A stretch of 64,000 bases of DNA from NCBI RefSeq assembly GCF_020085105.1, contig NC_058055.1, positions 6,941,322 through 7,005,321 of the forward strand, written 5' to 3'. Below are positions 21,401-64,000 of this stretch, piece after piece (position 1 is the stretch's first letter; each line of letters starts with the position of its first letter). Source of the stretch: Siniperca chuatsi (Eukaryota > Chordata > Actinopteri > Centrarchiformes > Sinipercidae). A program made the position numbers and the translations under genes. The notes under the pieces are model-generated. The model saw nothing but the letters and a program-made list of their open reading frames with translations. It was not told where the DNA came from and searched no databases.

Positions 21401-21628
21401 ACATGATTGACGTGGGTGGATCACAGACACACAAATATAAATGCTTAGGCTAAAACAAGCTGGAGAGCAACTTAGTATTTATTTAGAATAGAGGCAGTTA
21501 GAATTATCCCCTTCCGTTTGTTATATTGATTTTATGGTTGCTGCAAACAGAAAAGCAGAGAGAGGAGCTGAAATGGTTGCCCAGTGTGAGTGGAAGTCTT
21601 GTGTTTGTAGAGCTTGTGTTGTTCAAAG

Positions 21629-25125: not shown

Positions 25126-28100
25126 TTAGAAGTTGGTCTGAGTAGGAGGTTTTTCAGGTAGATGGATGTTGGAGCTGATGACAACTATGGCTGGATATCT
25201 GTCTCTTCCTCCCCTCTCATAATACGGCATTTTTGACATTTCATTCAGGTTGTATGGTGTGATGGACAGCTTCAGTTTCTGTAGGAGAAATGTACCAGTA
25301 ATATTAACACACAGCTTGACATGGGTACTACCCGCAGTGTCTTTGGTAGAAGAAAAGCAAATGTTCGTCACCTGCATGAATGAGCCAGGGAGCACCCACA
25401 ATGTGTGGACGGCACCCAAAGGAATCCAGATGATGGAGGCCATGGCAATGACCCAGCCAACCCCCTGAGCCCAGGGAGGGAAGACATAGTCTTCATAGCG
25501 GGCTGGCTTGAACTGGATGATGGAGAAAATCAGGATAACCTGCCACAAGAAGAAACATTTAAAGTTTAGTTGTGACACCTTTAGTTGGATCTCAGTTTTG
25601 CTTTAGGGTAGACATCTTGAATCTGAATCATGTTGATGGAAAAAAAAGCCTGTTGACTTACAGTGATCAGCACAGGAGCAACTATTAGCCAACACAGTCT
25701 GAAGAAGATGTTTGCTCTTTTTCCAGTCATCTCTTCTAGGTTGTCTGAAAGTCGAGTCACTCCTGCACATGGAAAGCTACTTCAGTAAACAGCAATGCAT
25801 ATTTTATTTGCACGTTGACAGACTTTTACAGCATTTGGCAATGAGATAGTCAGATATATACATATAGCCTTACAAATGTGTAAAGTGCAACATCACATTA
25901 ACTGGCCACTGAAAAAAGAGACACAACTGAACATGGTTTCTCACCATAGCACCAACAGACAGCTACAACCTCAAAGAATGCAAGAAACATGATGGACACT
26001 ATGGCAGTGTAATGGTCCATCAACTGGAAAACATAGATTCCCACCTGACCAGAGACACAGCAGGTAAGTGAGGATTTTACAATTTGGCCATAATATGGTT
26101 AAAATTCATCCTGTAATTACAGTCTGTACCTGCGTGACACAAGGAATTCCTAGAAGACAAGCTGCGCCACAAACAGCAAGAACAAACAGCTCCTTCCACT
26201 TGAAAAATTTTATCAGCTGTTGACAGAATTCATCCATGAGACTGGTCACCAGCACTTCAACCATTGCAAACTGGCAAAAAAAAAATTAATTTCTGAGTCA
26301 TACTGTAGCTCTGAAGGATTAGTGCAATAATCCGACTATTTGATTTCTGTGGAAATCACTAAAGTTGTAATGTTTTCCTCAATAACTACCTCACTGTCGA
26401 GTCCAAGGCAAAGCAGCATGAAGAAGAACATCACAGCCCAGAACTGAGCCGCTGGCATGTTGGCAAAGGCTTGTGGGTAAACAATATAAACCAATCCTGG
26501 ACCTAGAGACACAAACACACAAGATGTCAGATGTAGCATTTCTGATTGAAACAGTAAAACATGACCCTTCTAAAGAAGGAAACTGTGACATGAAATTACA
26601 CGACCACTAAGTGACACTTGATTAAAAATATACAATGGTCTTAAAATCTTTGAAATGTGAGTTGTTTATATAATTAGTGGGAAGATGGGAAAGTTCATAG
26701 CTAGACTGCATGCATTTGAAAGAAACATACTGATGTTGTGTGTCAACACACCATTTGTTGTTGTTGTTATATATTTATAGTTATTTATTAAGGTACTTAT
26801 TGCAAATTCCACATATAATGTTTTAAGCTTATAGCCTTTCATTGTTTTTAGTTTTGTGATTAACAGTATTTGTCTTTCTTTCTTGTATCTGTTTTTCTGG
26901 GTGGTGAGCTGCTGCATACAATTGCTCTTACAGAGATAAATTATGTTGCATTGGATTGAATTGAAGACAATATTTTGTGTGTTCCAGACCACATTACAAT
27001 CTGTGAAAACATAGATTTCTACTCTGCAAGGTTCTGAAGCCTTTTCATGCTAGCTCAAGTGTTTTCTCTAGATAAGTTAGGTGCATCTTTTGTTTCTGTA
27101 ACAGCCATAAACTATGACGAGCTTGTCTACACTGTAAGAGGAAGAGGTTGCATTCATTTCAGTTGGCCTTTTTCAATAGAATTTCTCCTCTGTCGAATCA
27201 TCGTGGCTTTAATTAGCTATTATGACTCATATTTCATTGGATTGTAGCTCTGGTTTCAGTTCCACATAAAGCATGACCTGTAACACTGGTAATTATCTGT
27301 TTGTTTGTTTTTTGATTAAACTCATTTATGATCAGAGTAATTACCCACTCACAAACGTATTATAAGAGAAAAGGTGACAGTCTCTAAAAACAAAAACAAT
27401 CCCCCTGGAGCTGAAGATATTAGTTGAGATTATTTTATCACTTGTTTTGTTTTCTTACCATCCACCGCCAGATCGCTGACAGGAATGCCCTGCAGATGAG
27501 ACATGTATCCAAAGGCAGAGAAAATAACAAAACCTGCCAGGATACTGGTAAGGGAGTTGATGATAGATATAGTCAGGGTGTCCCTGTAGGGAAAGAAGAT
27601 CTTTTTTATATCACTTTCTTACTGCCCAGAGATCATTATTGTCACTGTTGGGGGAATTGAGTGGATGAGGATTTTGGCTTATTACTTCAGAACATTGTTG
27701 TTGAAGGAGTTGTAGCTGGACATGGCCAAGAGGGAGCCGAAACCAATCCCAATGGAGTTAAAGATCTGAGCTGCAGCATTCACCCACACCTGCAACACAG
27801 AGGGATGTTCACCCAGAACCACTGATCACTGCAGGTACCAATCATCAATACCGATGCCAAAATAAAAATTTTGGCAAAAAATTTTTCTCTTGCTACTGCG
27901 GCACCAGTTAACTCCTCTCCTGTTTCAAACAGAACACGTTGCTATTTCCAGTTCCTCATCTCCTCTCTTTCTTATTTCATACCTCCACTGAGAGAAGCTT
28001 GTCCCATTCCGGCACGATGAAGAAGGTTATTCCATCTAATGCTCCAGGGAGCTGCGTATTATTGATCAGCAGGGAAATCAGGATAACGTACGGGAACAAA

Positions 28101-31100
28101 GCCGTGAAGTACACCACCTGCAAACAGAAACAAACAAGGGTTGTTATTCACCATCTGTCCCTCTCCTTGTCTCTGTCTCAATTTCTCTCTCGTCACTTAC
28201 CTTGCCTGTTGATTTCACCCCCTTAAAGATGCAAAGGTAAATGAGGATCCAAGCCAGAAGAAGAATAAGGAAAAGCTCCCATCGGATCACTCCTGCTTCC
28301 TCTACTCCACTTGTCTGCTCAAGCATCTTATATCTTCAAAGAAGCCAAAAAAAAGAGAAAAAGTAATTAATGCTGAACTTAAACCCTGACATTATGCCTT
28401 AAAACTGAACACACTCTAGCCAATAAGAAAACAGATGGCTCCGAAATTCTTTCCTGTTGCAATAAGTTAGTCATTGCAATCAGATGGACAATGGGCAGGG
28501 AAGCGTTAACATGTGGTGTCCCACATTCTGTTCTGAAATTCTGTACAGGCATTCATGGTACCCAGAGGATGAATCCTAATTATTTGGTGATCCCTGACTT
28601 TTTCTTTAGTGCCACCATAAGGTTAACATTTGCCATGAAATTTGATTTGGATATGCATGGTACCCAGAAAATGAATCCTATTGATTTTGTCGATCCCCTG
28701 ACTTTTCATCTAGCACCACTAGCAGGTCAAAGTTTTTACTTATCCAGTCAACATCTACAAGATGGACTGGCACAAATTTTGGTACAGACATTCAAGGTCC
28801 CCAGAGGATGAGGTCTACCGACTTCAGTGATCCTCTGACTTTTCCTCTAGCGACACCAGCAGGATCACATTTGTGGATTAGAGTGAAATGTCATGGAGTG
28901 CCAGTACAATCACTTTGTGGGAGCTGGGAGCACCCAGCGGCCTGCGAGCCTTTGAACGCTCTCCTCTTGCTTATGTCTCTGTCTGTCACGGACCCGGTTG
29001 TAGCGAGCTTGCTACAGTTACATTGCCATTAGTTAAAGATAATGCTGTGGATAGGTAGACCCAATGGTGTAGGGAGTAATAAATCATTCCCCAACCAGAA
29101 AGCCTGGATGAATGGAGAGGTGAGGGCTCTATTCAGAGCCAAAAAAGCTGATTTTCGGTCAGGAGACAAGGAAGCTTACAACACACACCAGAGCAAGACT
29201 AAAAGCTGGCATCAAGGAGGCAAAGCTGAGACATCAGGATAGACTGGCAAGAGACCTCAACACTAACAACACCAAAGATATGTGGCAGGCTCAAAAACAT
29301 CACAGGCTACAAAAGCAGAAGCTTTTTTGTCAAAATTGTCAGTATCCACAGCGGATGTGAGAAGAATCCTGCTGAGAGTGAATATGACTACCGCCCTGTG
29401 GCTCTCACCCCCATTCTGATGTCTGCAGTTTTGAGAAACTGGTTCTCCAGCACATAAAGAACAACATCCCAGCCACCCTTGACCCTCACTAGTTTGCTTT
29501 CAGAACCAACAGATCCACAGAGGATACCATCTCCACTGCCCTCCACTCAGTCTTCACACACCTGGAGAACAACACCTACATCAGAAAGCTGTTTGTTGAT
29601 TTCAGCTCAGCATTCAACACAATCTCTCCCAACTTTGCAGCACTCTGGGCTTGAGTACCACACTCTGTAATTGGATACTGGACTTCCTTACAAACAGACC
29701 CCAGACAGTTTGGATTGGCGGTTACACCTCCTCCACTCTAGTGCACACTGGAGTGGAGGAGTGCTCAACTCCCTCCTGTACGCGCTGTACACCCATAATT
29801 GCAGAACCCAACATGGAGATGTTGTGAAGTTTGTGGATGACACCACCATCATCAGCCAGAATACAAACAACGATGAAACTTCATATTGGAAGGAAATCAA
29901 CAATCTTGCAGAGTGATGCACAGAAAACAACCTACTTCTCAACATCAGCAAAACCAAGGAGATGATCGTTGATTTTAGGAAAAAGAAGGCAAAGACACAC
30001 ATCCCTGTCTACATCAGTGGAGCTGAGGTGGCGCAAGTGAATAGTTTTAGGTTCCTGGGAATCAGCATCATAGAGAACCTGACATGGTCCTCTCACATCT
30101 CCACCCCGGTCAAGAAAGCTGTATTTCTTAAGGAAACTGAAGAAGGTAAAATTTCTGTGCCAAGTTCTTATTAACTTTTACAGAGGAGCAATAGAAAGCA
30201 TCCTGACTGGAAACATAACAAATGTGCATGGGATGTGCACGGCCCAGGACCGGAGGGCTCTGCAGTGGGTGATTAAAACTGCTCAGAAGATCACTGGTAC
30301 CAACCTACTTAGCTTCCATCTGGCATGAGATACAGAAGTATTCACTGTTGTACCACCAGACTACAGAGCAGCTTCTTCCCTCAGGCTGTGAGACTCCTTA
30401 ATTCATCCTCACTCCACCATTATTTGGACATGGGAGATATGAGATGGGAGGTGGGAGCTGAGAGCAGCAAGATGGGAGATGAGAGCTGGGAGCTGGGAGC
30501 TGGCAGCTGGGAGCTGGGAGCTGGGAGCTATGAGATGGGAGGTGCGAGCTGGGAGATGGGAGCTATGAAATGGGAGGTGGGAGGTGGTAGCTATGAGCAG
30601 GGAGATGGGAGGTCAGGCTGAGAGGTGGGAGGCAAAACTGAGAGTGGGAGCTGGATGCTCCCAGTTGCAGTTTTTTTTCCCCATGCAGTTTGGTGCAGAC
30701 ATTCTTGGTCTTTGTGAATTTTTGTGATCACTGCCTTTTCATCTAGTGCCATCATCAGGTCAAACTTTTAATTTGTCCAGTAACTACCCTTAAAATGAAT
30801 CACATTCCCATCAGCCTCAACTGTACTTCGCATTGATAAAAACACTGATGATGTTTACGCTGTACAGAGATGACAACCAGTAACACATATTACAAATACG
30901 TCATGCCCACGCAGTATTTTTTATATCTCTGTAGCTCATTTTTCACATCTCTGCTCATCCAACGCTGCATAGGATATCATAAAATCTCACAAGTGACATA
31001 ACATGTTGACCTCTGTGCTTATCCTCAAACAAATAAACTATGCAATAGCTACACGCACATCTCTAAATGTAACACAACATGATCAACTTTTCTAATACAG

Positions 31101-33180
31101 TTTGCCAAAGACCTTCATTCTGACAGCACCCTCTGGCCAATTATTACATTTATTTTAATACTATTGCTGAAGGTCAAAAACAAATTTTGTACATTAATTT
31201 TAATCTGTCTAACAAAGAGAATTACAGCCTAACAGAGTCTCTAGCGTGGGTGAAGACCCCCAATTGGGGCCATTGTCACAAAAACAAAATCAGTTTCCTC
31301 AGGTCAGTGGTTAAAGCTGATGCTTTACAGCAAAAAGATTTTGCTTGTTCATATGGGTTTCCTTCTACAGTCCAAAGACCTGAGCATTTCTAGACTTTAA
31401 ATCAGCCGGTAACAGGAACCTGAATGTGTTTGTCTATCAAGAGTCGCCCTGTAACTGTAAACCAAGCAAGCTGTCCCTTGAAGCTCTCCCTTCATTTTGA
31501 CAAATGAATAATTTCCTAAGCAATCACTGTCTAGTTGTGGCATTCACTTCCAAATTCCCTAAACTCAACCTGCAGTTAAACAAGTTAATGAGTAAACCAA
31601 TTTGAAAACATGAGATTTCTCTCCACTGCCTAAACAGTGAAAAATGTAGGTTTCTTCATTAAAATCTTCTTTATGAAAAGTTTATCCACATCAAAACCAA
31701 AGAAGACTTGAAAAAATTCTGCTGCACACAGAAGAAAGCTAGGTATAAAAATTTTATATTAGACTAATGATGAAGTTAAAACTGGCTTAACATTTCCCAC
31801 ACTTCCTTAACCTATTTGCCAAGCTCTTATCACTAACCTTCACTTTGACTGATATCCCTCACATGACTCATCACATGATAAGATGTAATTTCAATAAAGT
31901 TTTATGTTGTTTATTAAAATAATTTGTTTTTTTCACCGCCGATATAATCGCCAGAGTTAGAGTTGTGTAAACAGCCCAGCCTCTTGTCAAACTACAGGGA
32001 TTTTGTAATCCTGCTATAATCATCATTATCTAGTCTGGTTTTATTATTCTGAGAACCAGCACTGGTTTCTCCCACACAGTGAAACATACTTGAAGAACTC
32101 ATGGCTAGCTGTGGAGGAGTAGCTGCTGTTGGTGGCATGGTTGGTACAGTTTGGTGTGTTCCAGGTGTTGTTGCAGTTTTGCCAGGGTAGCGGTGCCTGG
32201 AAGGAGCTGAAGAGATAATAAAGGGCCCATGTGATGACGACATTGTAGTAGGTGCACATGATGAAAGAGATAGCCACTGATGCCATACCCACTCCTGAGG
32301 ACAAACAAAAATAATGTCAAAATAATGTTTTTTCAGTATGGACACCTTTCAATGACTAGAGAAATTCATTCATGCCACAGAGTACCTTTTAACAGTGGAC
32401 AGACATTAGCCAGAGCATGGACAGGCCCTCTCCTCGTATACTGGCCCACAGTCAGTTCCATGTAGAGCAGAGGGATCCCCAACACCACTAGCATAAACAG
32501 GTATGGCACCAGAAAGGCACCTGGCAGGAAGTGATGGCACATCAACTGTCACACACATTTTGCTGGCAAAGGAGGTTTCGACTGTGCTAGTTTTATAGTA
32601 TCCGCTAATCTTTAACGTTTGTCACAGTCATCCTGCACTTGCATTTCCTTCCTTATATGTTGGGTCATTTGTAATATTCAGGGAAAGTATCCCTCCATAA
32701 AATTTTACATGTTTATTATTGTAAACCAACTTCATGTTCGTTCCAACTTAACAATTTCAGAGTGCAGTATGGGCTTGTGACACATATTCTTACATGAAAT
32801 GCACAGTGAGGTATTGTTCACAACAATCTGAACATTTTTCAACACAATCAGTATCACTACAGAGTGATTGTGTGTTTGAAGTAGGGCTCACTAACAGCAC
32901 AATTTGTTAACCTTTGGACCCAGTTTTGAGACCTTTATAAATGTACAGAGGGTGGTCTGGTTTCAAAATTCTGTTTGAGCATGAAATGTCGTATTCGTTT
33001 CTCACCTCCTCCACTCCTGAAGCAGAGATAAGGGAACCTCCAAACGTTGCCCAGACCCACAGCACAGCCGATGCCAGCCAGGGTGAACTCTATCTGCCTG
33101 CTCCATGTTGGTCTGTTGAACTGCTGCTCCATGTTTGCTCCCTGTGTCACCACTGTCGCTCGTCTGGGCTCAGACTCCAT
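25126..33180 (-). CDS. SLC6-family Na+/Cl- -coupled amino-acid or neurotransmitter transporter (complete, 13 coding exons)
   Basis: Coding exons in transcript order: 33180-33006, 32520-32386, 32294-32090, 28333-28201, 28117-27983, 27789-27686, 27583-27459, 26502-26390, 26270-26130, 26044-25945, 25762-25662, 25539-25372, 25278-25126. They sum to 1788 nt, 595 residues. The 12-helix LeuT fold is clear. TM1 has [12 protein letters not shown] (residues 42-53) then a GGG turn; TM2 has the [11 protein letters not shown] block; TM6 has [20 protein letters not shown]8 has LGLDSEFA with the Na2-site Asp. The second extracellular loop has paired cysteines and N-glycosylation sequons (NCT, NSS). The [18 protein letters not shown] stretch resembles SLC6A14 and the glycine/proline transporters, so an amino-acid substrate is likely. 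Odd points are Cys39 where most relatives have an aromatic residue (GCAVGLGN), and Phe instead of Trp in TM6. I cannot assign the exact member; a fish-specific SLC6 paralogue is possible. Confidence 0.92.
26503..27458 (-). other. SLC6 intron, no internal feature recognised
   Basis: AT-rich intron between the exons ending at 27459 and beginning at 26502. A 108-codon minus frame at 26666-26992 is low-complexity AT-rich sequence and is not credible as a gene. Confidence 0.6.
28501..28895. repeat. Array of diverged ~100-140 bp teleost repeat units
   Basis: Three diverged copies of a unit share a GGTACCCAGAGGATGAATCC-like start (about 28557, 28659, 28796), followed by TGATCCCCTGACTTTTCCTCTAG-like sequence and a CACCAGCAGGTCA-like tail. 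A fourth copy lies at about 30680-30790, beyond the LINE relic, and a relative lies at 40640-40860. This kind of unit is common in percomorph intergenic DNA. It is in an intron of the SLC6 gene. Confidence 0.7.
29042..30420 (+). mobile_element. Degraded non-LTR retrotransposon (LINE, L2/CR1/jockey-like), reverse transcriptase region
   Basis: Successive frames, broken by stops and frameshifts, match the reverse transcriptase of teleost LINEs. In order: a linker with [21 protein letters not shown] (29097 on), [19 protein letters not shown] (29503 on), a finger-palm segment [11 protein letters not shown] (29594 on), the catalytic FVDD box at 29829-29840, and the thumb-side segment [10 protein letters not shown] (30040 on) with a final block ending near 30400. 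The element is 5'-truncated or unrecognisable upstream and is dead. It sits in the SLC6 intron 28334-32089, in the sense direction opposite to the host gene. Confidence 0.85.
30430..30660. repeat. GGGAGCT / GGGAGAT heptamer minisatellite
   Basis: About 230 bp of imperfect purine-rich heptamers such as GGGAGCT, GGGAGAT and GGGAGGT directly after the LINE relic. The sense strand is strongly G-rich with many GGG runs, so quadruplex or triplex structure is possible. It may be a degenerate LINE tail that expanded; that is inference. Confidence 0.85.
30680..30790. repeat. Further copy of the 28.5-kb repeat unit
   Basis: It contains GGTGCAGACATTCTTGGTC, TGATCACTGCCTTTTCATCTAG and ATCATCAGGTCAAACTTT, matching the units at 28501-28895. 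Together they bracket the LINE and minisatellite. Confidence 0.6.
30791..32089 (-). other. Remainder of the large SLC6 intron, nothing recognised
   Basis: AT-rich unique-looking sequence between the repeat cluster and the exon 32294-32090. No open frame of interest and no repeat with clear ends. Confidence 0.5.
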
Positions 33181-36100
33181 GGAAAGGTTGGCTGGACTGT
33201 AAGTGACTCTGGGTGATATAACCCTTCTTTTTATTATCCTTAATGATTAGCTTTGCAGAAACACTCCAGCATGCAGCAGCTCAGAGGTTCACAAAAAGGG
33301 AAAAGTTTAATAGGTGTCATAAAGCTCCTTTGTAGTTTTGAATCGCATATAAAATGTACAAGGGTTAGAGAAATTAGCATTTTTTTTTATTTTGGAAAGT
33401 TGATTGTTTAATAATATTTTTTTACTCATTTGGCCAACCAATGAGCAGAGCACATTTTGCTCATCTTGACATGCCTGGTTATAAACAATATATAATACTT
33501 AATAATACAGACAACATTACTTACTATGTTGACGGCCAAATAAATACATTTTACCAAAAAAAAATTAAATCTAACTCTTCAGTTTGGGTGTGAAAAGGCT
33601 TCCCTTTTTTACATTATTCTAACCTTCTTCACATTAACTGTGCAGTAAGAGTGGAAAAATTCAATTTTGCACTGACAATACATAAAATATTTTGTTTTTT
33701 AAATATTTTTGACAAAGGTGACAGGGTCATCAATTATTATCTATGTAGTTAAGAAGCTCAGTCAAAGAAAAGAGACAGAACTTAACTATTAAATCATTTT
33801 TAATCATATATTCATATATTACTACTTTGAATATTTTAACTAATTTCTAACATTTCATGGATTTCACAAGCTCTGCCTCTTTAACACCAAAATCTTTACA
33901 TCAACAAGAAATCCAAAGCTGTCAAGTAAAGACAAAGTATGCCACACATGAAATGAAACTTACATAATTTGTTCTGAGCAACATGTGCTGTAACACAGAT
34001 TTCACGTGGGGCCATCATGGTCAAACAAACCACATTCCTATAACGATAACCTTTATGATAAGCAGAGATGTGGCTAGTGGCCCTTTAAATACTGTATATG
34101 TCCTTTTGTTATGTCTGGCTATGTATGTTTTTCTTTCTCTCTGCTGTACTCAGGTCTCTCTTGCAAAAGAAATCTTGATCTCAATGATATTATCTGATTA
34201 AATAAGGGTTGTATATACAAATGAGGGACTATCTTGTGGAGGAATGATGTTCATCATCAGCAAGAAATCTGGAGTATTGGGAAGAGGCAGAGGAGGAAAA
34301 GTAAAGCAGTGGGGTTGTGGAAAGAACTGTGCAGTGTGGAAATGCGGTAATCCACTTCCTGTTGTGACGAGTATATGACAAGCTCACATCCATTTCTAAA
34401 CTGAACAAACTACAAACCTCAAACTGATGTCTCCAGCAGCAGCAGACATTTTGGAAGGTCTGTAGAATACCAGGATGTCAGTCATTCAACAGCTGCAGGC
34501 CCATTCAGCTATGTACCCAAATCAAAAAAGTCAAAATCAGAGTTCTTATCATGTTTGAGCCACATAGTGTTGCCCTAACAGTGTACAGCAGAGGGTGCCA
34601 ATATAGCTGTTTGGTTGCTGAACATCATAATACCAAAAGAAAAGAAAGTGAGTTTGAAAAAGCAGATTGATGATTGTGTTTATTTTTGGTCTTTTGTACT
34701 TGTTAATTTGTGTTAAAATTCCTTTAAAAAACTCAATGCAAACATGTTTAGCTTATACAGGAGAATTTCGTCTACATGATCATTGTGACACTTAGGTGGT
34801 TTGTGTCTGTGGGCCACCTGCTGGAAGAAGAGAAGATTTTGAATTAAGGACTTTGGATGTTGTCCATGGCTTACTTTTGTTGCCTTCTGAGCAGGTGTCC
34901 TAGTTGTTCTTGAGGACCCTCACCACCACCCTTATCAAGGCCTTACGTTAGCCCAAAGCTCACTCCCTTATGAGAGATCAGGGCTCCAACAGCTATGGTG
35001 TGGGATCTTCACATGCTGGTTGTAGGGGGCCAGTATGGGTTGTGGTCCAGGGTTAATCCCAGTCTGTTCCTGCCCTAGAGCATGTCTTGTTCTTTTGTAT
35101 TGTGGCAGCAGCACTCACAAATCCATCTGCCAGCCATATGGAAAAAATGACAACATCATGAGGGCAGCTATGGAGTAGATGAAAAAACTATATGCACCAA
35201 CAAAGGCCATCATAGACTCAATGAAGCTTAGAGGACTAGAAAATAAGATACCATGGCATGGTGATGATGTTCACATCATCAATACATGGAACTAGGATCC
35301 ATCAAAAAAAAAACTATCATGTGTCACCTCACATTTGGTCTGAGGGAGCATTGTTTGGGTTATAGTGCGAAAAGATATTTGCCACGTTGACAACAGCCAC
35401 AAATGAGCAATCATCAAGCATCATCTAACTGATCACAGCCAGTCCAGTACTTTGACTCAGGTACAGCCACCCCAAGCCCAGAGTGCATCAGCTAGTTCAC
35501 CATGCATACAGAGGCAAATGCTAAGGTGTGATTAGTGGCATTCTCTCAAGTTTTGAAATTCCCTGGAAGTAGTCATGCAGGTCTTCTATTGTGATTACAG
35601 TGTCATGAAGGGCTACCTCTGCAGGAGGACTGGGTGTGCCACGGCTTTTCTGCATTACTACAGCCCATCAAATTTTACTTTGGTAATGAAGGTCAAATAT
35701 TGTGATTGTGCAGGTATACTACTGTGAATGAGCAACTTAAACAAGGAAAAAAAATTACTTTGAATATCTATGCTGTTACTCAGCCTGAATGAGTAAAAGC
35801 ATTTAAATCTTTTGATTGGATTGCGCTTGTTCTGGACGTGAAAATACAAACAGAGAATCTAAGCTGCTTGCTGTCATGGAGAATTTAGAAATAGGAGAAA
35901 GTTGATGAGAGTTTCATATTTAAAAACACTGTGTGAGTTTTATTCGCACACATTATAGCACAATTCTACAGGAGCACACATTGTCCATCTGCATTAGGCG
36001 TGTCCTTGCAACCCGTGATAGATTTCACAGAGATATTAAAACTGTAGCTATCAAAGCAATCTATGACCATGATACCGAAGGACATAAATAAACACAATGC

Positions 36101-48500: not shown

Positions 48501-51500
48501 GGGTCACCTGCGTGCCATCCTTGGTGGGTAGTCCCTCAAAACTGCATTGTCACTGCTTGAGTTTTTGTTTTATTTAGTTTTTTTCCAAAAAATGTGGACA
48601 GTCCAAGTAGTTTTTAAATCTTTGCTTATATTCTAGGAAAGTAGAGAAGAAGAGGGATTAAGGGGGACACAGACAAGATAGCTTTTAATTTTTATTTTGG
48701 CAACATCTTTGAGTCAAAACATGTAGCAAGATAAGCCACCGGTGAATGACTGATTGCAGCATGAACATTTGTTGCTACCAGAAGATTGTAAATGGCTGTA
48801 ATTATCATGATTCTGGATCCTAAATGTAGATAGTTTTTGTGGCCGTGTTGTTATTTTTGAATTAGTTTAAGCCTGTTTTGTTTAGTATGAAGTAAGAACC
48901 TCACCATGATTGGGGCTGTGTGAAGCAGTTTTAACAGAAAGGTGGTTGTGGAGTAAAATGGCCAAGAGGCAGGTTTAGTCACTGACTCAGCTTGCCCCAG
49001 TTTCATTTCCATTCTGGTAAAATATTGTTGACTTGAATACATAGTGTGCTCAACAGGTGTGTAATATTATAAAGCACATCAGCATGCACAACAACAAAAT
49101 AATCTAGTTCACTCATATGGCAAACAAGGAAAGGGCAATTTGAGCACAAGGGAGACAGAATGACACAGACGATATAAATTATATTGAACAAAATTGCAGG
49201 TGCTGCTTCTGTTTATTCAAATAAATTGCAGTCGCAAACAGATAATGTATAACTTCCTCTGCATCAGAGGAGGAGGTGTTTAAAACATCAAGGGTAAAAG
49301 CTGTCATGAATTGTAGCACATTACTGTCGACGGCTGAGGGTAACAGTGAGGATGTATATATCTGACAATGTTACAGATGAGTTGGCCATTGTGCTCTCTT
49401 GACATGTTGCCCATTTTTGTCAGTGTACTCAATTTTAGTTCAATAATGACTGTAGAAGTAACTATTTGAATGGGAAGTCACTAACCACTGATTCCACCCT
49501 TTTAGGCACCCTAACTGTTGAGCAGATTTACCAAGACAGAGACAAATTTGCCACTCTGGTGCGAGAGGTGGCAGCACCTGATGTCGGCCGCATGGGCATC
49601 GAGATCCTCAGCTTCACCATCAAGGTGTGAGACATCGAGACATCATGTTCACTTGATTCTGTATTTATCTGTTGAACATCTATTTCCTGTTTCTGATTTG
49701 AAATAGAATAATTTAATTGTACCTGCATATTTATTTTTCCTCCTGACAGGATGTATATGATAAAGTGGAGTACCTGAGCTCACTGGGCAAAACTCAGACA
49801 GCTGCGGTACAGAGGGATGCAGACATCGGAGTGGCAGAGGCAGAGAGAGATGCTGGCATCAGGGTAAGAAGAGCTTTAAGAGGAAATTAAAACTACAAAC
49901 AAGAGCAATTAAAAAAACATCTGTTCTCTGATTGCTTATAGCTTTTAACTAAGAGCTGCTCCTAATCCATCTTTCTGTCATTATCTTTTGCACACTTTAC
50001 AGGAAGCTGAGTGTAAGAAAGAAATGATGGATGTTAAGTTCCTAGCTGACACAAAAATGGCCGACTCCAAACGAGAGCTGGAAATGCAGAAAGCTTCCTT
50101 TAATCAGGAAGTGAACACAAAGGTATCACGTTATATAGCTTACATTTAACATAGGGTCAACAATCAAACATAATAGTAAAGTATTAATAAAACCTCCTGC
50201 CTCTCTAGAAAGCAGAGGCTCAGCTGGCGTATGAGCTGCAGGCGGCCAAAGAGCAGCAGAAGATCCGTCTGGAGGAGATCGAAATCGAGGTGGTGCAGAG
50301 GAAGAAGCTGATCACTATTGAGGAGAAGGAGATCGTCCGCACTGACAAGGAGCTCATCGCCACTGTGAAGAGACCTGCCGAGGCTGAAGCCTACAAGATG
50401 CAGCAGCTGGCTGAGGGACAGAAGTGAGTGGGTCCCACACAGATCGCCCCTCAGTGCACAGTGCATCACCATTTAAGTCTTGAGGGGGGATAATTTCACT
50501 TGTTTCCATTGCAAATGTTTTAACAATTTTCATGATTCAAGTGTTATTATCTTATTTTAAATTGCTGACATTTATTTCACCACAATTCCTGAAACAGGAG
50601 AAACTACGCAGCAACAACCAATGCTGGATATAATGTTACATCTTGTGCCATTATTCAAGGTGTTTACTCATCTGCAGAGCCTGTTTGGATTGAATGACAC
50701 ACCATCATGCAAATGAGTCCCATAAAACTACAGCATCATCAAAGTGGCTGCCAGTTTATCACTTACTTACCCTCACTCACCCAAGGTAAAGCGGTGAAAA
50801 TATTCTAAATATAGCGTACACTTAAACTGGCCCTTTTTCAGGTGACTAAAATACGTTTTGCTGCTGACCCCGTCCACAGCAGTAGGTTGCTTTGCTTCCG
50901 TGCCGGTACTCCTGTCTGCTTATCCTATCTACTGTAGGCAACAGACTGATGGATAAGTACCTCATACAACCCCACTTCAAAAAATCCGAACTATCCCTTT
51001 AAAGTTGGTTTGCATCAGCACAATAAACACAGCAGTAAAACTGGGCTAAACAGTGTTTTCAAGTTACAATCGGTTGGAAAAATGCTTATTTCTTACCTCT
51101 CAAGTCAAACTTATATATTCATAAATTACATATATGAACTTACCTGTGATTTTTATACTAGATTAATGACTAAAGTTGCACATTTCACACATTGCAAAAC
51201 AGTACATGACTGATTGCTAATGAAAGTAAACACTAAACCGTTCTTTTGATGCTTCTCTAACCCTACCCCAGGACAAAGAAGGTGCTGACGGCGCAGGCAG
51301 AGGCAGAGAAGATCCGCTTTATCGGTGAGGCAGAGGCTGCCTCCATTGAAGCGGTGGGGAAGGCAGAGGCTGAGAAGATGAGGCTGAAAGCTGAAGCCTA
51401 CCAGCAGTACGGCGAGGCTGCCAAGACAGCTTTGGTCCTAGAGGCTCTACCAAAGGTCTGTGGTACACATTTATACACCCGTGGTTCAAAGAAAATCACC

Positions 51501-52786
51501 AACATTTCAGGAGTTTAGTTTATTGGTCTGATTACCCAGTGTCTTCACCACTAGAGGGTTGGCACCAAAGTCATCTCTATGTCTTCTTTAAACAAATACT
51601 GTAAAAAAAATAATAATAATCATAGGCAGTTGGCATTATGAAAATATGACACATTATAAGTCCATTATAAATCAGCTGCATTAAAACATACTGCAGGTTT
51701 CATGTCCTTGGTAAGCAAGAAACCCCACGGGAAGAGAAACAATCTGCCATTGTCAGTACTTCCAAAGAGTCCCTTTGTTTCCTTAAAACACATGGCAGAT
51801 GTTTCACATTTAGGGTAATGCTGTCCCCCTACTCTTAACATGGTGTTTAAGCTATCTGTTAGAGACAGAAGACTTTGGTACCAATAGTTAAGTCACATAT
51901 TGGTAAGAAGAACAAAGGGACAAAACAGAGGAAATAGAATGAATATAACAAACAGATGCTCACTGTGTTTTATCAGATTGCCAGTAAGGTGGCTGCACCC
52001 CTGTCCAAGACCAATGAGATTGTGATCCTGAGTGGAGACGGCAGCCGCGTGACTGGAGAGGTGAACCGTCTATTAGCTGAACTCCCTGTTTCCGTCAACG
52101 CCCTCACTGGGGTGGATGTGACTAAGGTAAGAGTGGCACTGTTCTCCGCAAGAGTTCCTATATTTCATCAGACCCATCTTGTGAATCTTACATCCTTATT
52201 CCTACTCTGTTAACTTCAGGGTCAGCTGTATGCTTGGCCTCCATGCTGTTGGTTTATCATTCATGTCTTCAGGGACTTTCCATCAAAAGTTGCAATTGCA
52301 ACCTAATTTAGTCAACGCACGCACATACTGAGTAATTCTGCAGAATTTGAGCGCATTCTGTCTATAGTTGACATTACAGAAACATGATACTTCTAAATTG
52401 TCATAACTCAAAATAACTGGCCATAATTGGATTTAGATATTCTCCCAAAATGCCATCAGCCTGTTGTTAGCCATGATTGGCCACAAGGGGGTGCTGAAGT
52501 TTTAATGTGTCCTTAAGAAGACCAAAAAATGTACATGTCTTTATATCAGCATCCATGCTCAGCTGCAGTCACCTGTGTTTTCTTCAAAAGATGGCTCTTC
52601 TAGTTTCATTCCAAAGTGGACAATTGCTGTGATAGCGGAATATAATATCTAGCTGTAGTTTCTGAGGGTGTGACAGCACTCGTGTTTATTACTCTCTGTT
52701 TAAACCAGCTAATCCTTCTGTCCTCTGATCCACAGATCCCTCTGCTCCAGAAGATGATCAGCCCACAGTGCCAAACAGCCATGTGA
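36558..52786 (+). CDS. flot2: Flotillin-2 (reggie-1), complete, with two alternative third coding exons
   Basis: Coding exons: 36558-36606, 40185-40266, then either 43290-43380 (3a) or 43897-43987 (3b), then 48400-48523, 49506-49624, 49750-49863, 50003-50122, 50209-50423, 51272-51455, 51977-52126, 52736-52786. With one third exon the total is 1299 nt, 432 residues (human 428). Gly2 (MGNCHTVGP) fits N-myristoylation; Cys4, Cys19 and Cys20 fit S-palmitoylation. The SPFH/PHB domain fills the N-terminal half ([44 protein letters not shown]). The C-terminal half is coiled coil with EA-rich repeats ([20 protein letters not shown]) and ends in a segment resembling the oligomerisation tail. Flotillin-2 pairs with flotillin-1 in membrane microdomains that act in endocytosis, adhesion and axon growth. 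The last 14 residues differ from the mammalian end. Whether it is flot2a or flot2b cannot be settled here. Confidence 0.96.
36607..40184 (+). other. flot2 intron 1
   Basis: The first 250 bp carry several TAACGTTA-type motifs (36607, 36781, 36802), as at the other 5' ends. A hAT-like repeat lies at 38203-38640, and pyrimidine runs lie near 40060-40130. Otherwise nothing recognised; the 139-codon frame starting at 36508 just reads through exon 1 into the intron. Confidence 0.6.
38203..38640. mobile_element. Non-autonomous hAT-like element or fragment (CTAGTGATGGGAAG family)
   Basis: It opens with CTAGTGATGGGAAG and the internally repetitive GGCTCCGTTCC, GAGAGCCGGCACTTTTGGCTCC and CCAAACGGCTCTTC-like sequence typical of a common fish MITE. 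Near the other end, CAGCTCTCAGACGGGAGCC resembles the distal palindrome of the same family. I did not find a clean right terminal repeat, so the right boundary is approximate. Confidence 0.5.
40267..43289 (+). other. flot2 intron 2
   Basis: Contains a diverged copy of the 28.5-kb repeat family at about 40640-40860. A GC-richer patch at about 42600-42840 includes CATTATAAAAACGGGGGC (TATA-like, 42653 on). No coding exon was found. Confidence 0.5.
40640..40860. repeat. Teleost interspersed repeat, relative of the 28.5-kb units
   Basis: Contains GGGGGAGATATCTGTACAACTA, a CCCCAGAAGATG block and AAGGCCATCATTAGG, the same order of motifs as in the units within the SLC6 intron, then AATGTGTGGAACAAGATATT. 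Boundaries are approximate. Confidence 0.45.
43290..43380 (+). CDS. flot2: flot2 alternative exon 3a (upstream copy)
   Basis: A 91-nt exon with acceptor CCTGCGTAG and donor GTAATG. Read in the phase set by the preceding exon (…CAG AG), it encodes the residues after Gln43, opening [20 protein letters not shown] and ending DVTGVAQ. It is 18/31 identical to exon 3b. Compared with 3b it has an additional cysteine (residue 54, in ILCRC) and Asp in place of Thr before VTGVAQ. Because 91 is not a multiple of 3, including both copies would shift the frame, so the two must be alternatives. Confidence 0.85.
43897..43987 (+). CDS. flot2: flot2 alternative exon 3b (downstream copy, mammal-like)
   Basis: A 91-nt exon with acceptor TTCTTCACAG and donor GTAAAT, in the same phases as 3a, 517 bp downstream of it. 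It encodes [20 protein letters not shown] and ends in TVTGVAQ, nearly identical to mammalian FLOT2, so this is the copy that gives the canonical protein. Confidence 0.92.
44544..45490. mobile_element. Putative ~950-bp DNA-transposon remnant with inverted ends
   Basis: The left end (44544-44582) and right end (45442-45490) are imperfect inverted repeats. The left reads CTTTAAG, an A-rich run, ATCCACCTT, then AGAATTCA. The right reads TGAATTCT, then AAGGTGGAT, then CTCTTTAAG. Internally, 44860-44900 (CTTTAAAAACCAGCAGCCAAACC) resembles a LINE 3' end, and 44960-45060 resembles another known fish repeat. It may therefore be composite or nested. No target duplication was identified. Confidence 0.5.
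45918..46599. mobile_element. MITE, 682 bp, with terminal inverted repeats and 6-bp target duplication
   Basis: The left end TATGGAGGACCGGA pairs with the right end TCCAGTCCTCCATA (one mismatch in the 14-bp repeat). The direct repeat AATCTA flanks both sides (45912-45917 and 46600-46605). The interior is A/T-rich with AAATAAAT-type sequence and no transposase. The superfamily is not evident from the 6-bp duplication. Confidence 0.8.
46758..46779. repeat. Poly(A) run of 22
   Basis: Uninterrupted A run in flot2 intron 3. It may be a retroposon tail, but no retroposon body was recognised next to it. Confidence 0.8.
50600..51003. mobile_element. Teleost interspersed repeat, probable MITE
   Basis: The right end (about 50880-51003) reads CCTATCTACTGTAGGCAACAG, then GATGGATAAGTACCTCATAC, and finishes CCGAACTATCCCTTTAAA. 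This is a terminal segment that recurs widely in percomorph genomes. The left boundary was not found. It lies in the flot2 intron between exons 50209-50423 and 51272-51455. Confidence 0.55.
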
Positions 52787-58939: not shown

Positions 58940-61060
58940 CTCATCTTCTATGTGCACATACCTGGGTTTGGTACGATTTTTTCCCCCGAAATAAGAAAGT
59001 GTGAAATAAGTGCACACATTTACCTGCCACACTTATGCCCCAGAGTCATTCATTTCAGTCAATTATGTTCAGAACTCTTAAGGATGTAGCTGTTGTGCCA
59101 ATACACCCAAAACTCATGTACAGTTCTGTTTGGGGCCTTTCCTCAAATGGAAACGTGAACTACCCTCAGTTAATGACAGATGGATAAAAAAGGTTCAAAT
59201 AGGGAAGAAAAATTTTTTCACTCAAAGTTTTTTTTAACCTCCTGACATGATATTGCCCCAGAGGATGATCAAAATTAAACTCTTTCATAATGTATCTCTC
59301 CCTTTTTTCTTTCTTCCCCCATTCTTAATTAGTCTGCTTATATAAAAACTAATTTCCAGTGTTGTATTTTGCTCTGATCTGAGCCAGTGGGGTTTGGTTG
59401 GACAGGAGTAGGGGTGAGGAGGGAGGGGAAGAGTGGGTGAGACTGGACAAAGCTAGAAACATGTGGTAGAGAAATGGTGATGAAACATGATGTAATGACA
59501 TTATGATGGCACTTACTTGTTGTTTCAGAAACAATGTACCTAACTGCAAACAGTTGACTCAAATCCCAACATGTTTCCCCTGATGACTTTGGATAAAGCC
59601 GGCTTGTTGCGCAATGAAAGCTTCCTCCCTTCTTGTCTCTACGTGTGGTGAAGAATAAAAAAACTTATCTGTGAACGCAAATGGAGAATTGTAGAAAAAG
59701 TGTAGCATTTCTGCTGCAGATAAAGTGTTGGAGTGAAACCAAACCACCCAGATAGTCCTACCTCCATCTTTATCTGTGCCTACAGGAGGACCTCTCACAC
59801 CCTGTACCAACTCCCACACTCTAAGTAAGGAGTGCGTTACCATAGTAACTATCATGTCCCACCTAACCCGGCCCTTCCTAAAGAGCATGTTGCAATTCAC
59901 AGACAGCATCCATAAACAAAGAAATAGTTACTGAATTGAACTATTGGAACATTGTTAAAAATATTAAGAATCACAGTCCTTCTCCCTCTGTAGGTTTACA
60001 CTACACAGGGAGATAAATTAACTTAGAATACCTTAGAATAGTGGTGTAGTGGTAGCTGAGATGTGACTGTACTGTGAATATTTCTAAGTTAAGGATTTGG
60101 TGTTGGAGCAGAACATTTATCAGTGTTGCTTGAGAACTCACTACACTCAATACCTGAAAAAGAGGTGGCTATATTGTGTATTCTCGTGCATATTCTGAAC
60201 TACATGACACTGATCAATTACTACTTAACAAGCTTTTGCATAAGTTTTGGGATTTGAATTTAATGAGTCGAGAGTTTCTAGCAGAAGGGCAAAGCCCCCA
60301 CGAAGACTTGTTTTCTTTACAAAGACAGTCTATTTTTAAGGGATGTAGACAAACTGTCAAGGATTACAGACAAACTACAGCAAACTACTACCAGCTCTAT
60401 CACAGTCCAGGCATGATCAGATGCTGTGAATTTGATGTGTGGTGTCTGTATGACACTAATCATAAAAAAACAGATCTCAGCCCTCATATCCTGGAATCCA
60501 TATGAGCGCGTGAAAAAGAGTTTAATAAGTCAGATAACATGACATCAGCTGACATATCATAGTATTAAATTCCAACCCATGAAACCATAAATCCAAGGGC
60601 TTTGAGATCCAGAGGATTTAAGAGATGGTGAATATTAGATGTATTACCGCATTGTGAGATAAAGCTCCAAGCTTTTTAATAGATGTTGAAGAAATTCTGT
60701 TTTGGCTTACTGCTGGCTTCTTTTTATTAGACTTGTATGACCAAGATCGGTCAAAAAGGACATAAAGAATATTTGGAGAAATATGAGAAATACTGAGCGC
60801 TTCGAGGAAAGCATTTCTATTGTTGCTGCTAAGTCAAACTGATTCGTGTTTAAAAATCAACTCTGGTACAAAATGACAAACTATTGAAAACGGTAAAATA
60901 ACAACCTTTTTCCTATGATATCAATGAATGTTCTGTCTGCATAGATTCTTGCTCCTGCTGCCTGTTTTCATTCTGAATAACGTGTAGTTTTTCTGCAAAG
61001 TCCAGCCGGGTGTAATAAGGGTGTGGGCAATCATTGGACAGAGGCAATCAGGTTAGCACC

Positions 61061-61140
61061 AGATAAGAAAAAGTTCACCCTGTGCTGTCTGGTCCACCCA
61101 GATGTCATCACAGTATGCTAATGAGCCGGGGGCCTTTAAG
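61061..61140 (+). promoter_or_regulatory. Candidate erythroid promoter of the miR-144/451 primary transcript
   Basis: Within 80 bp there is a GATA site AGATAAG (61061-61067), a CACCC-type box CCACCC (61094-61099) overlapping a CAGATG E-box (61099-61104), and CCTTTAAG (61133-61140) as a possible weak TATA-like element. GATA1, KLF1 and TAL1 sites of these types are characteristic of erythroid promoters, and mammalian miR-144/451 is GATA1-driven. The block ends about 450 bp upstream of the miR-144 hairpin. Promoter activity is inferred. Confidence 0.45.
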
Positions 61141-61580
61141 TGCAGGAGCCCAGCAAGCAGAGCAGTTAGGAGCCTGTGAACCAGACACAGACACATAGCA
61201 GCCATAAAATATCAACATGTGAAGGAAAGTGTCAGCGAGCCACTGCATGCAAAAAGGTGAGTATGTAACACAGAGACGTCGCTGAGGCTTCAATGGGCTT
61301 TGTGGCTCTGCAGCAGGTGACAGAGATGTTGTTGGTGCAGGGTTAATGATGTTTTGTTTGTTTTTTGTACTTGTTTAACAGTACACTTTAGTAAAAAAAG
61401 AGACTTTTCTTCTGACTGGCATTTGAATACATGCCTTTTTTTAAAAATAGCATCGTTACCATGTGATTAACATTTTCATTGGCTGACCTTCACTGTGCAT
61501 CACTGATGAGTCGTCTGTCTTTGCCTTGCAGATTACAAACACAGCCGGAACTCGCTGCGAATTAGTTATGCCTTGTGTCC

Positions 61581-61651
61581 TGGACAGGATATCATCTTAT
61601 ACTGTAAGTTTATTAAAGAGACACTACAGTATAGATGATGTACTATCCAGG
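61581..61651 (+). ncRNA. mir144: microRNA miR-144 precursor
   Basis: The 3p arm TACAGTATAGATGATGTACT (61625-61644) is identical to vertebrate miR-144-3p as I remember it. The 5p arm starts GGATATCATC at 61587 and pairs with it (ATCATC and TATACTGTA blocks, with a one-base bulge) across a loop near TTTATTAAAGAGACAC. The base is closed by CTGGA/TCCAG. Compared with the remembered human 5p strand, one base differs (T for A near its middle). miR-144 acts in erythroid cells on targets such as Nrf2 and, in zebrafish, alpha-globin regulation through klfd. It lies 90 nt upstream of miR-451 on the same strand, so the two share a primary transcript. Confidence 0.97.
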
Positions 61652-61725
61652 GTTTAATTCCCCCTCCGGCACTATCAGCACACACTCTGGCCTAACTGTC
61701 TGCGGTAGGCTGCACACTGCAGAGG

Positions 61726-61786
61726 AGGGCCGTCAAACCGTTACCATTACTGAGTTTAGCAATGGTAAGGGTTATATGGCTCTCGC
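61726..61786 (+). ncRNA. mir451: microRNA miR-451 precursor
   Basis: The mature sequence begins AAACCGTTACCATTAC at 61735 and runs to about 61757. The opposite arm AATGGTAAGGGTT (61761-61773) pairs with it through a tiny loop, giving the hallmark short stem of about 17 bp. Below this, GAGGGCC and GGCTCTC extend the basal stem. Because the mature strand reaches into the loop, this precursor is too short for Dicer. In zebrafish and mammals it is cut by Ago2 and trimmed, and is required for erythroid maturation. The sequence shows the features needed for that route. Confidence 0.98.
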
Positions 61787-61897
61787 TCAATGTCATCTGG
61801 ACCGGGAGGATGAAAAACGGTGGTGATTGATGTGTTATTCATGAGCTTCTGAATGCTTTTGATAGCATGTTTGTGATGTACTTGTGGATGCATGTAA

Positions 61898-61903
61898 AAT
61901 AAA
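61898..61903 (+). terminator. Candidate polyadenylation signal of the pri-miR-144/451 transcript
   Basis: AATAAA 110 bp after the miR-451 hairpin on the same strand, followed by a short T run. The transcript end is inferred. Confidence 0.35.
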
Positions 61904-62349
61904 GCTTTTTGCTCCCAAACAAATGAGTACCTCGTTATTTTGATAAAAACACATCTAAAGCAGGGTATAGGCATTCTCTTGCAATATCTTGTGTTTGAAG
62001 GATTACTTTAATGTGCTGGCTGACATGAGCTATATTTTCAAGCAGCAGTTGGCTTGTCTAAGTGGTGATCTCTGCTGCGCAACCGGCTTGTCTAATCACT
62101 GGGAAGCAGCCGTTGCAGAGAGCAGGGAGAGCTTGAGGGGCTGACACAGCTTCTGAGACATTCAAGGCCTCTCCCTCCCTCCCGTCGTCCTTGCTTTAGG
62201 CCACTAGCTGGTTATTCATCAAGATGCCCCGGATAGAGTAACCGTCGAGTTAACTCTCAGGCAGCAGGAATGAATCCAATCACCATTATCTGACCCATTT
62301 TAGCATCAGGTTAGTGCTCCATTTTGCCATCCATTAGGGAGACAATTCA

Positions 62350-62365
62350 GCCCTCGGGGGCAGTG
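62350..62365 (+). promoter_or_regulatory. Candidate CTCF-binding site
   Basis: GCCCTCGGGGGCAGTG matches the CTCF-type consensus CCACTAGGGGGCAGTG at 13 of 16 bases, with the GGGGGCAGTG half perfect. It lies between the erythroid microRNA unit and eral1, a plausible place for an insulator. Confidence 0.3.
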
Positions 62366-62978
62366 CTGGTCTTTATAAGAGCCAAAAAAGCATATGGAGG
62401 GGAGAGGGGGTAAGGAGGAGGAGAGAGAAAAAAAGGAAGAACGCGGCGGAATAAGAAATGATAGTTGCAGGGATGGATGGCCACACTTCAAAGGCAGTGG
62501 AGAAGGCTAAAGTGATGTGGGAGTGGAGGGAACAGGGGCGGATGGTACATCAGGGACTTTAGAGTGAACATGACTGTGCAGGTTCCGCTAGGCACGAAGC
62601 GCCCGCCAAGTAAAAAGCTCTGAGAGCCAAAGATAAACCATCGGCCTTTTCACAGCTCGCCAAACCTGCTCAGCCATGAACCCACTGTCAAACTTGTGTC
62701 AAAACATCCATTTGATGAGTCTGTGTCATGTTTGTTGCCTTAAATATATCATTGCTAAATAAATGGCAATAATTCATTACAGTCCATTCTGCAGCTTCAG
62801 TAAGCTGCTTTTAATAGACATATTTTCTCCACTTCACTGATTTAGAAATGTCAAATTTCTTCTAAGTCGGGGAACCCCTCACAGTTTTCCACCACTATAA
62901 TAACAGCATCTTATAGGTAACATCTTTACATAAAAATCTTTAATAATGTCTTGTCTGCACGAAACAGTAAGAGTACAA

Positions 62979-62984
62979 TTTATT
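62979..62984 (-). terminator. Candidate eral1 polyadenylation signal
   Basis: TTTATT on the plus strand (AATAAA on the minus strand), about 220 nt beyond the eral1 stop codon. Confidence 0.45.
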
Positions 62985-63202
62985 TCCTTTAAACAGGTAC
63001 CATCTCAGTAGGAGCTCTGGGTCTGTGGATATATGCCACCTCGCAGCTCCACGTCTGACTCATGATGAGATCTTATCCTTTGTTCGAATCTTCAGGTCTG
63101 TCCTTTGCAGAGAAAAATACAAGAGTCATCTCAAATCCAGCTGGATCTGTTTCCACCACTTTGTCTCTTCAGGATTTCACCATTAAAGTCCTTCCATCCT
63201 AT

Positions 63203-63325
63203 TCACTTCTTCAGCTTGACTGAGAGCTTCAGCTTTACTTCCCTCAGGAAGACCTGGCTCAGGTCCTCACTGGCCTCTCGAGCGATCCGTGCTACCATCT
63301 GGCCGGCTGTGCCGATCACCATCCT
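63203..63325 (-). CDS. eral1: ERAL1, last coding exon (partial gene; the rest lies beyond the right edge)
   Basis: Minus-strand exon of 123 nt, acceptor at 63326 (CTATAG), ending in TGA at 63205-63203. It encodes 40 residues beginning RMVIGTAGQMVARIAREASE and ending LREVKLKLSVKLKK. This is the end of the KH RNA-binding domain of Era-like GTPases: IGTAGQMVARIAREA corresponds to the human IGPKGHVISQIAQEA, with the GxxG loop present as GTAG, and the human protein ends in RLSVKLLK. ERAL1 is a mitochondrial GTPase that binds 12S rRNA and assists small-subunit assembly. It faces the miR-144/451 unit and flot2, as in human 17q11.2. Because only the last exon is visible, gene integrity cannot be judged. 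Confidence 0.9.
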   Translation of the reverse strand, partial: RMVIGTAGQMVARIAREASEDLSQVFLREVKLKLSVKLKK

Positions 63326-64000
63326 CTATAGACACAAGAAATACAGCAACATCAGGCACCAGCGACTAGACAGGGCCATGGGTTTTTTTGCTGCAGGAAA
63401 TGACATATGAGTAATGCGGGTTTAAGAGACATAAACTTAGACTTAAAAGGTCCGTGTGGAAAATAGTTTCATGGTATCTGTAGATATAACAGCAAAGGAT
63501 AATAGAAGGTATTATAAAATCAAGGTTAAGATGGCATATTTGACAAGAAATAACAAAAATCAGAACCTAAAAAAGAACTTGGCAAAGATTAAACAATTAA
63601 AACACAACCAGACAAAAGGACAAAAAATGTTTAGTCCATTATGCATTTTCTTATATTGATAATTCATTTGAATACCTACTAACTCTATAATTCAATGTAT
63701 TTTACATCTCACTGAGGTTTTCCATCTAAAAAGAATTATGAATTACTTAATTCATAATTATGAAGAACTTAAAAAAATGTCATTTTAAATTTAGTCAAAG
63801 AAAACTGGACAAGATGGCTTTGTACCAGGAACTATTCATAAAATAAATGAGATTCAATTACTTTGGTCAGTCATCCCTGTGAGTTCTACCTGAGCTACAT
63901 TTCTGTAGTCATTCCTTTGATTAATGTAAAAGCTAAAGACTGGTGTTGGATGAGTCACTCTACTTGGAGGTCATTGGCCCTGAAACATTTCAGCATGACA
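63326..64000 (-). other. eral1 intron (to window edge)
   Basis: AT-rich sequence with no further exon that I can identify. The open frames here are A-rich and not credible. Confidence 0.5.

Follow-up and report, generated by a model that had tools for sequence, protein, structure and literature searches.

The miR-144/miR-451 locus and its neighbours

The window, a stretch of 64,000 nucleotides of Siniperca chuatsi DNA, contains a mir-144 hairpin (61577–61655) upstream of a mir-451 hairpin (61720–61790), both on the + strand and in the usual order. The earlier note on this DNA had named both precursors, and the Rfam matches at these positions (RF00682 and RF00722, respectively) confirm them. 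Its order, strand and spacing are also correct: by sequence match in the window, mature miR-144-3p (61625–61644, +) and mature miR-451 (61735–61756, +) are separated by a gap of 90 nt. The mir-144 hairpin has a covariance score of 95.6 bits (E 4.5e-22), well above the gathering score of 60 bits. It folds with a z of −6.27 (61577–61655), or −4.34 with flanks (61570–61662), and none of 200 shuffles was as good. The pattern of miR-144-3p, with up to three mismatches allowed, occurs once in the window and was present in 2 of 100 shuffles.

The earlier claim of unchanged mature sequences stands for miR-144-3p and for the miR-451 22-mer, both of which are exact; it does not extend to miR-144-5p (61587–61608, +), which is one base off the Rfam consensus, with U in place of A. 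The U form is found in the printed precursor of the Japanese flounder (PMC3144956) and, under a medaka name, among small RNAs from the hearts of Antarctic notothenioids (PMC11209021). The terminal loop region (61609–61624, +) is one base longer than the Rfam consensus and keeps GAGACAC (61618–61624) beside miR-144-3p. Over the aligned part of the printed flounder pol-mir-144, 61 of 62 bases are equal, the 5p form and the loop included, and the one difference is a loop base (PMC3144956). Such a likeness is in keeping with a spiny-rayed fish.

The mir-451 hairpin scores 63.0 bits (E 6.9e-12 for the whole window), 3.5 bits short of the RF00722 gathering score of 66.5. The gathering score is the reporting cut-off of Rfam and no biological criterion; the exact mature sequence and the synteny decide the identity of mir-451. 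The hairpin folds with a z of −7.27 (61718–61790; 0 of 200 shuffles as good), so both hairpins have the fold that the earlier note had expected of them, and the miR-451 pattern with up to three mismatches occurs once in the window and in none of 100 shuffles. Chance would not be expected to yield either mature sequence in the window, and the exact miR-451 22-mer appears in 78 papers of the literature searched. Scanned with Rfam, the whole window gives one match at the gathering score (mir-144) and five at a laxer threshold; a scan at the gathering score thus finds mir-144 yet misses mir-451. By folding energy the ranking differs. Among 8522 windows of 90 nt on both strands, the lowest-energy one (61696–61785, +) lies over mir-451, whereas the best mir-144 window is only at rank 53, so energy alone would not single out mir-144; its sequence does. 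The spacer between the two Rfam matches (61656–61719, +) has no special structure, and no third hairpin was found there (61656–61718, z −0.19, 86 of 200 shuffles as good). Downstream, three folds in 62030–62150 do not stand out from their shuffles (z −0.29, −0.34 and 0.04). At E 0.001 the cluster DNA matches the genome (718.8 Mb, 65 contigs) once, in a DNA search that a diverged copy could escape. A 25-base miR-451 pattern had no match in the viral or in the prokaryotic contig collection, as expected there.

Two exon frames of flotillin-2 lie upstream of the cluster on the same strand, at 51264–51515 (phmmer, Flotillin-2 E 3e-22, Flotillin-1 7.9e-10) and 51938–52210 (Flotillin-2 E 6.1e-19). 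By eye, a possible last exon of this gene is located near 52736. On the other side, some 3 kb outside the window, an exon frame of the mitochondrial Era GTPase is located on the − strand (L002:3505–3714, E 1e-14); one of the four frames given to Pfam from this side matched a GTPase family. The cluster therefore has flotillin-2 on one side and, on the other, the Era GTPase gene, which is on the opposite strand. In chicken, miR-451 is likewise reported between ERAL1 and FLOT2 (PMC6627052), the same flanking genes. Thus mir-144 and mir-451 share a strand, with mir-144 on the 5′ side; they lie no more than about 100 nt apart and are flanked by ERAL1 and FLOT2. Identity as the miR-144/miR-451 cluster is supported by sequence, structure, order, strand, spacing and neighbourhood. 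The locus is an intact, ordinary and conserved orthologue of an already known kind.

Farther from the cluster, the window contains exon frames of an SLC6 (sodium:neurotransmitter symporter) gene on the − strand (25126–25599 and 32935–33246); in the PDB the first exon is matched best by glycine transporter 1 and the last by a dopamine transporter. A short-chain dehydrogenase exon frame (21160–21450, +) has its best PDB match in 1xg5 ‘ARPG836’, which we take to be DHRS11. A GC-rich minisatellite (30426–30631) is built of units of 7 and 35 bases, and a weak mir-3156 match at its edge (30624–30685, 27.4 bits as compared to 76) is probably due to chance. An open frame at 29917–30174 (+) resembles by eye the terminal part of a LINE reverse transcriptase; Pfam gave no match for it.

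The mir-451 stem and the Argonaute genes

The pre-miR-451 was placed at 61735–61776 (+, 42 nt), its ends following the published lengths of about 42 nt for the precursor and about 30 nt for the product (PMC3919586). The Ago2 cut would fall between nt 30 and 31 (61764/61765, +). The form expected of miR-451 is a short stem of about 18 nt with a 4-nt loop and a paired slicing site (PMC4121517). In Siniperca the stem region is 18 nt, the loop is 4 nt and the slicing site is paired, with pairing probabilities of 0.985–1.0 for nt 7–13 (1.0 for both nt 10 and nt 11) and 0.854 for nt 14. Three positions within the stem region (1, 6 and 15) are mismatched. The very short, Dicer-independent stem described in the earlier note is borne out by the loop and by the paired 10/11 slicing site, and the form of the predicted hairpin supports placing this precursor in the short Dicer-independent type.

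Two of the mismatches, G6–G35 (61740/61769, +) and A15–C26 (61749/61760, +), are absent from the printed rat precursor, from which Siniperca differs at 3 of 40 bases (26, 35 and 40); the 40-nt hairpin folds at −16.9 kcal/mol in Siniperca as compared to −22.7 kcal/mol in rat, 5.8 weaker (PMC7367451). Among the 22 pairs of the Rfam structure, 16 are unchanged, three carry changes on both sides and still pair, two are changed on one side and one is broken. The broken pair is A15–C26; positions 6 and 35 are not counted in the Rfam structure. The three double changes lie in the lower stem and suggest that pairing there is conserved, a hint that comes from comparing one sequence with one consensus.

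Slicing by human AGO2 is 2.4-fold faster with G:G at position 6 for a guide whose position 7 is strongly paired, and does not gain where that pair is weak (PMC11100590). Position 7 of miR-451 is a weak U–A pair, so that test does not give a gain for G6–G35. In the same study, slicing was slower by 8- to 64-fold when position 17 was mismatched; the Siniperca mismatch sits at 15. In the literature searched, A15–C26 had no match. The U26 form of the loop and 3′ arm is in print (in DNA letters) and C26 forms were not found; however, no printed sequence of a fish pre-mir-451 was found either, the G35 forms of the 3′ arm being likewise absent, and since the standard fish precursor is itself missing from the literature searched, the missing C26 is weak evidence that the mismatch is unusual. 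A15–C26 may be a trait of the lineage or neutral. It is conceivable, though we think it unlikely, that this fish lineage gained A15–C26 on top of the G6–G35 of fish and that the mismatch tunes slicing by E637D Ago2, eases 3′ trimming of the 30-mer or accompanies a shift to one of two ago3-like genes.

A search of the genome for the Piwi family yielded 31 exon matches, which fall into seven regions; five of these were examined, the two on contig C5 being left out. One exon of 58 residues (L024:2557–2730, +; G000:C17 at about 17.50 Mb) has its best match in human AGO2 (105.7 bits; AGO3 101.5, AGO1 91.1, AGO4 85.5). Six of its 58 residues differ from human AGO2, among them E637D, at the catalytic glutamate, and F666Y. 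The remaining four examined regions we take, by eye, to be ago4, two ago3 and ago1. In both ago3-like genes (L026, G000:C17 at about 7.43 Mb; L027, C9 at about 8.00 Mb) the positions that correspond to the slicer residues are, as judged by eye, still D, E, D and H. Chen et al. (2017) are said to have found that a G–G mismatch rescues fish miR-451, and E637D and F666Y are presumably the two teleost Ago2 substitutions meant in this connection. Two substitutions are described as impairing Ago2 slicing in most teleosts (PMC7765534 and PMC11811051, citing Chen et al. 2017); PMC11100590 cites Chen et al. as well. The combination of G6–G35 with E637D Ago2 is in line with the published account that the weakly slicing fish Ago2 can still cut pre-miR-451 thanks to a G–G mismatch in the seed. 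That the mismatch and the altered Ago2 occur in one genome fits the published idea that both go together in fish.

Other readings of the locus

The same DNA can be read as a small three-exon protein gene. This reading, which the earlier note had described as one that could mislead a gene finder, was reproduced exactly: it starts at an ATG at 61247 and stays open for 85 residues through exons 61247–61256, 61532–61603 and 61651 onward. It is one of 37 such models of any length in 61201–61900. When the window was cut into 182 slices of 700 bases, both strands included, 8 gave a model of at least 80 residues and 31 a model of any length. The first coding piece is just 10 nt, and the second intron is 47 nt long with both ends inside the mir-144 hairpin. 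Neither Pfam at E 0.01 nor the PDB at E 1 gave a match for the frame of the last exon. The note's own judgement is upheld by the 47-nt intron and by the similar models in other slices; in all likelihood the coding reading is an artefact, and a real protein gene here is scarcely credible. A naive gene finder could nevertheless call a false protein at the cluster.

A functional product might also be made from the − strand, as from a gene like mir-451b, which we take to be the human name for such an antisense gene. Both families match the reverse strand (RF00722, 47.1 bits, 61719–61789; RF00682, 44.2 bits, 61575–61653), and the antisense folds are close to the sense ones for mir-144 (−32.7 versus −32.8 kcal/mol) and weaker for mir-451 (−31.4 versus −37.0 kcal/mol). 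A good hairpin folds on either strand, however, and the antisense scores of both families are under the gathering scores and well under the sense scores, which leaves this addition quite improbable. Still less probable, in our estimate, is that this species makes little use of the cluster despite the intact hairpins in its DNA, as a fish whose red cells are scarce or absent might. There is precedent in the hearts of white-blooded icefish, where miR-451 stood at 78 CPM while two relatives with red blood had 104,923 and 10,284, and the near-loss there is in keeping with an origin from red cells (PMC11209021). The A15–C26 mismatch, which weakens the mir-451 hairpin, would also agree with little use. 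The exact seeds and mature sequences and the double changes that keep pairing in the lower stem speak against it and suggest continued selection. miR-2188-5p is likewise low in icefish (PMC11209021); in our window it had no match at up to three mismatches.

We consider it very probable that the locus is the teleost orthologue of the vertebrate miR-144/miR-451 cluster, which, taken together with the maturation proposed below, is the best explanation of the data.

Proposed maturation and comparison with known systems

It is established for other vertebrates that the cluster is transcribed as one primary RNA under the control of GATA1 and that Dicer is repressed by miR-144 (PMC11076586). By analogy, GATA1 would switch on a single primary transcript in the red-cell precursors of Siniperca. 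Sequence signals mark a possible intron of this transcript (61257–61531, +, GTGAGT ... TTGCAG), and an AATAAA at 61898–61903 (+), one of several such words in 61001–64000, is a possible end. WGATAR words are located near the cluster and are common words in general. Drosha/DGCR8 would then cut both hairpins, the mir-144 hairpin aiding its neighbour, as mir-144 is reported to promote nuclear cleavage of the suboptimal mir-451 (PMC9303283). For pre-mir-144, dicing is described as requiring that the loop contain a GA core and that two base pairs re-form at the Dicer site, as established in human cells and zebrafish embryos (PMC9303283). Siniperca keeps GA within GAGACAC, and the state with two re-formed pairs is predicted at +1.7 kcal/mol relative to the stable one; where the published UGAGA loop motif (PMC9303283) begins with U, Siniperca has A. 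The loop of pre-mir-144 would accordingly re-pair before dicing to miR-144-3p. The pre-miR-451 bypasses Dicer in the published scheme, being cut by AGO2 and then trimmed (PMC10772731). In Siniperca it would be too short for Dicer and would be loaded into Ago2; a cut opposite nt 10/11 would leave about 30 nt, which trimming would shorten to about 22 nt. The Siniperca sequence is compatible with those of these steps that are open to sequence tests.

The genome has one Dicer_dimer match, and the adjacent DNA is partly N. A search of the readable DNA beside it for a motif of the Dicer carboxy terminus gave none. One miR-144 8mer site is located in DNA near the match, inside or outside dicer1.

As compared to the vertebrate cluster represented by RF00682 and RF00722, the Siniperca locus shares both hairpins, their order and strand, exact miR-144-3p and miR-451 and the flotillin-2/Era GTPase setting. 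It differs by one base of miR-144-5p, one extra loop base, a mir-451 score below gathering and the unpaired A15–C26. It is one more orthologue of a Dicer-independent vertebrate microRNA. With the fish system of a G–G pre-miR-451 and a weakly slicing Ago2, it shares the G opposite G at position 6 and an ago2 with both E637D and F666Y, and differs in the extra A15–C26 mismatch.
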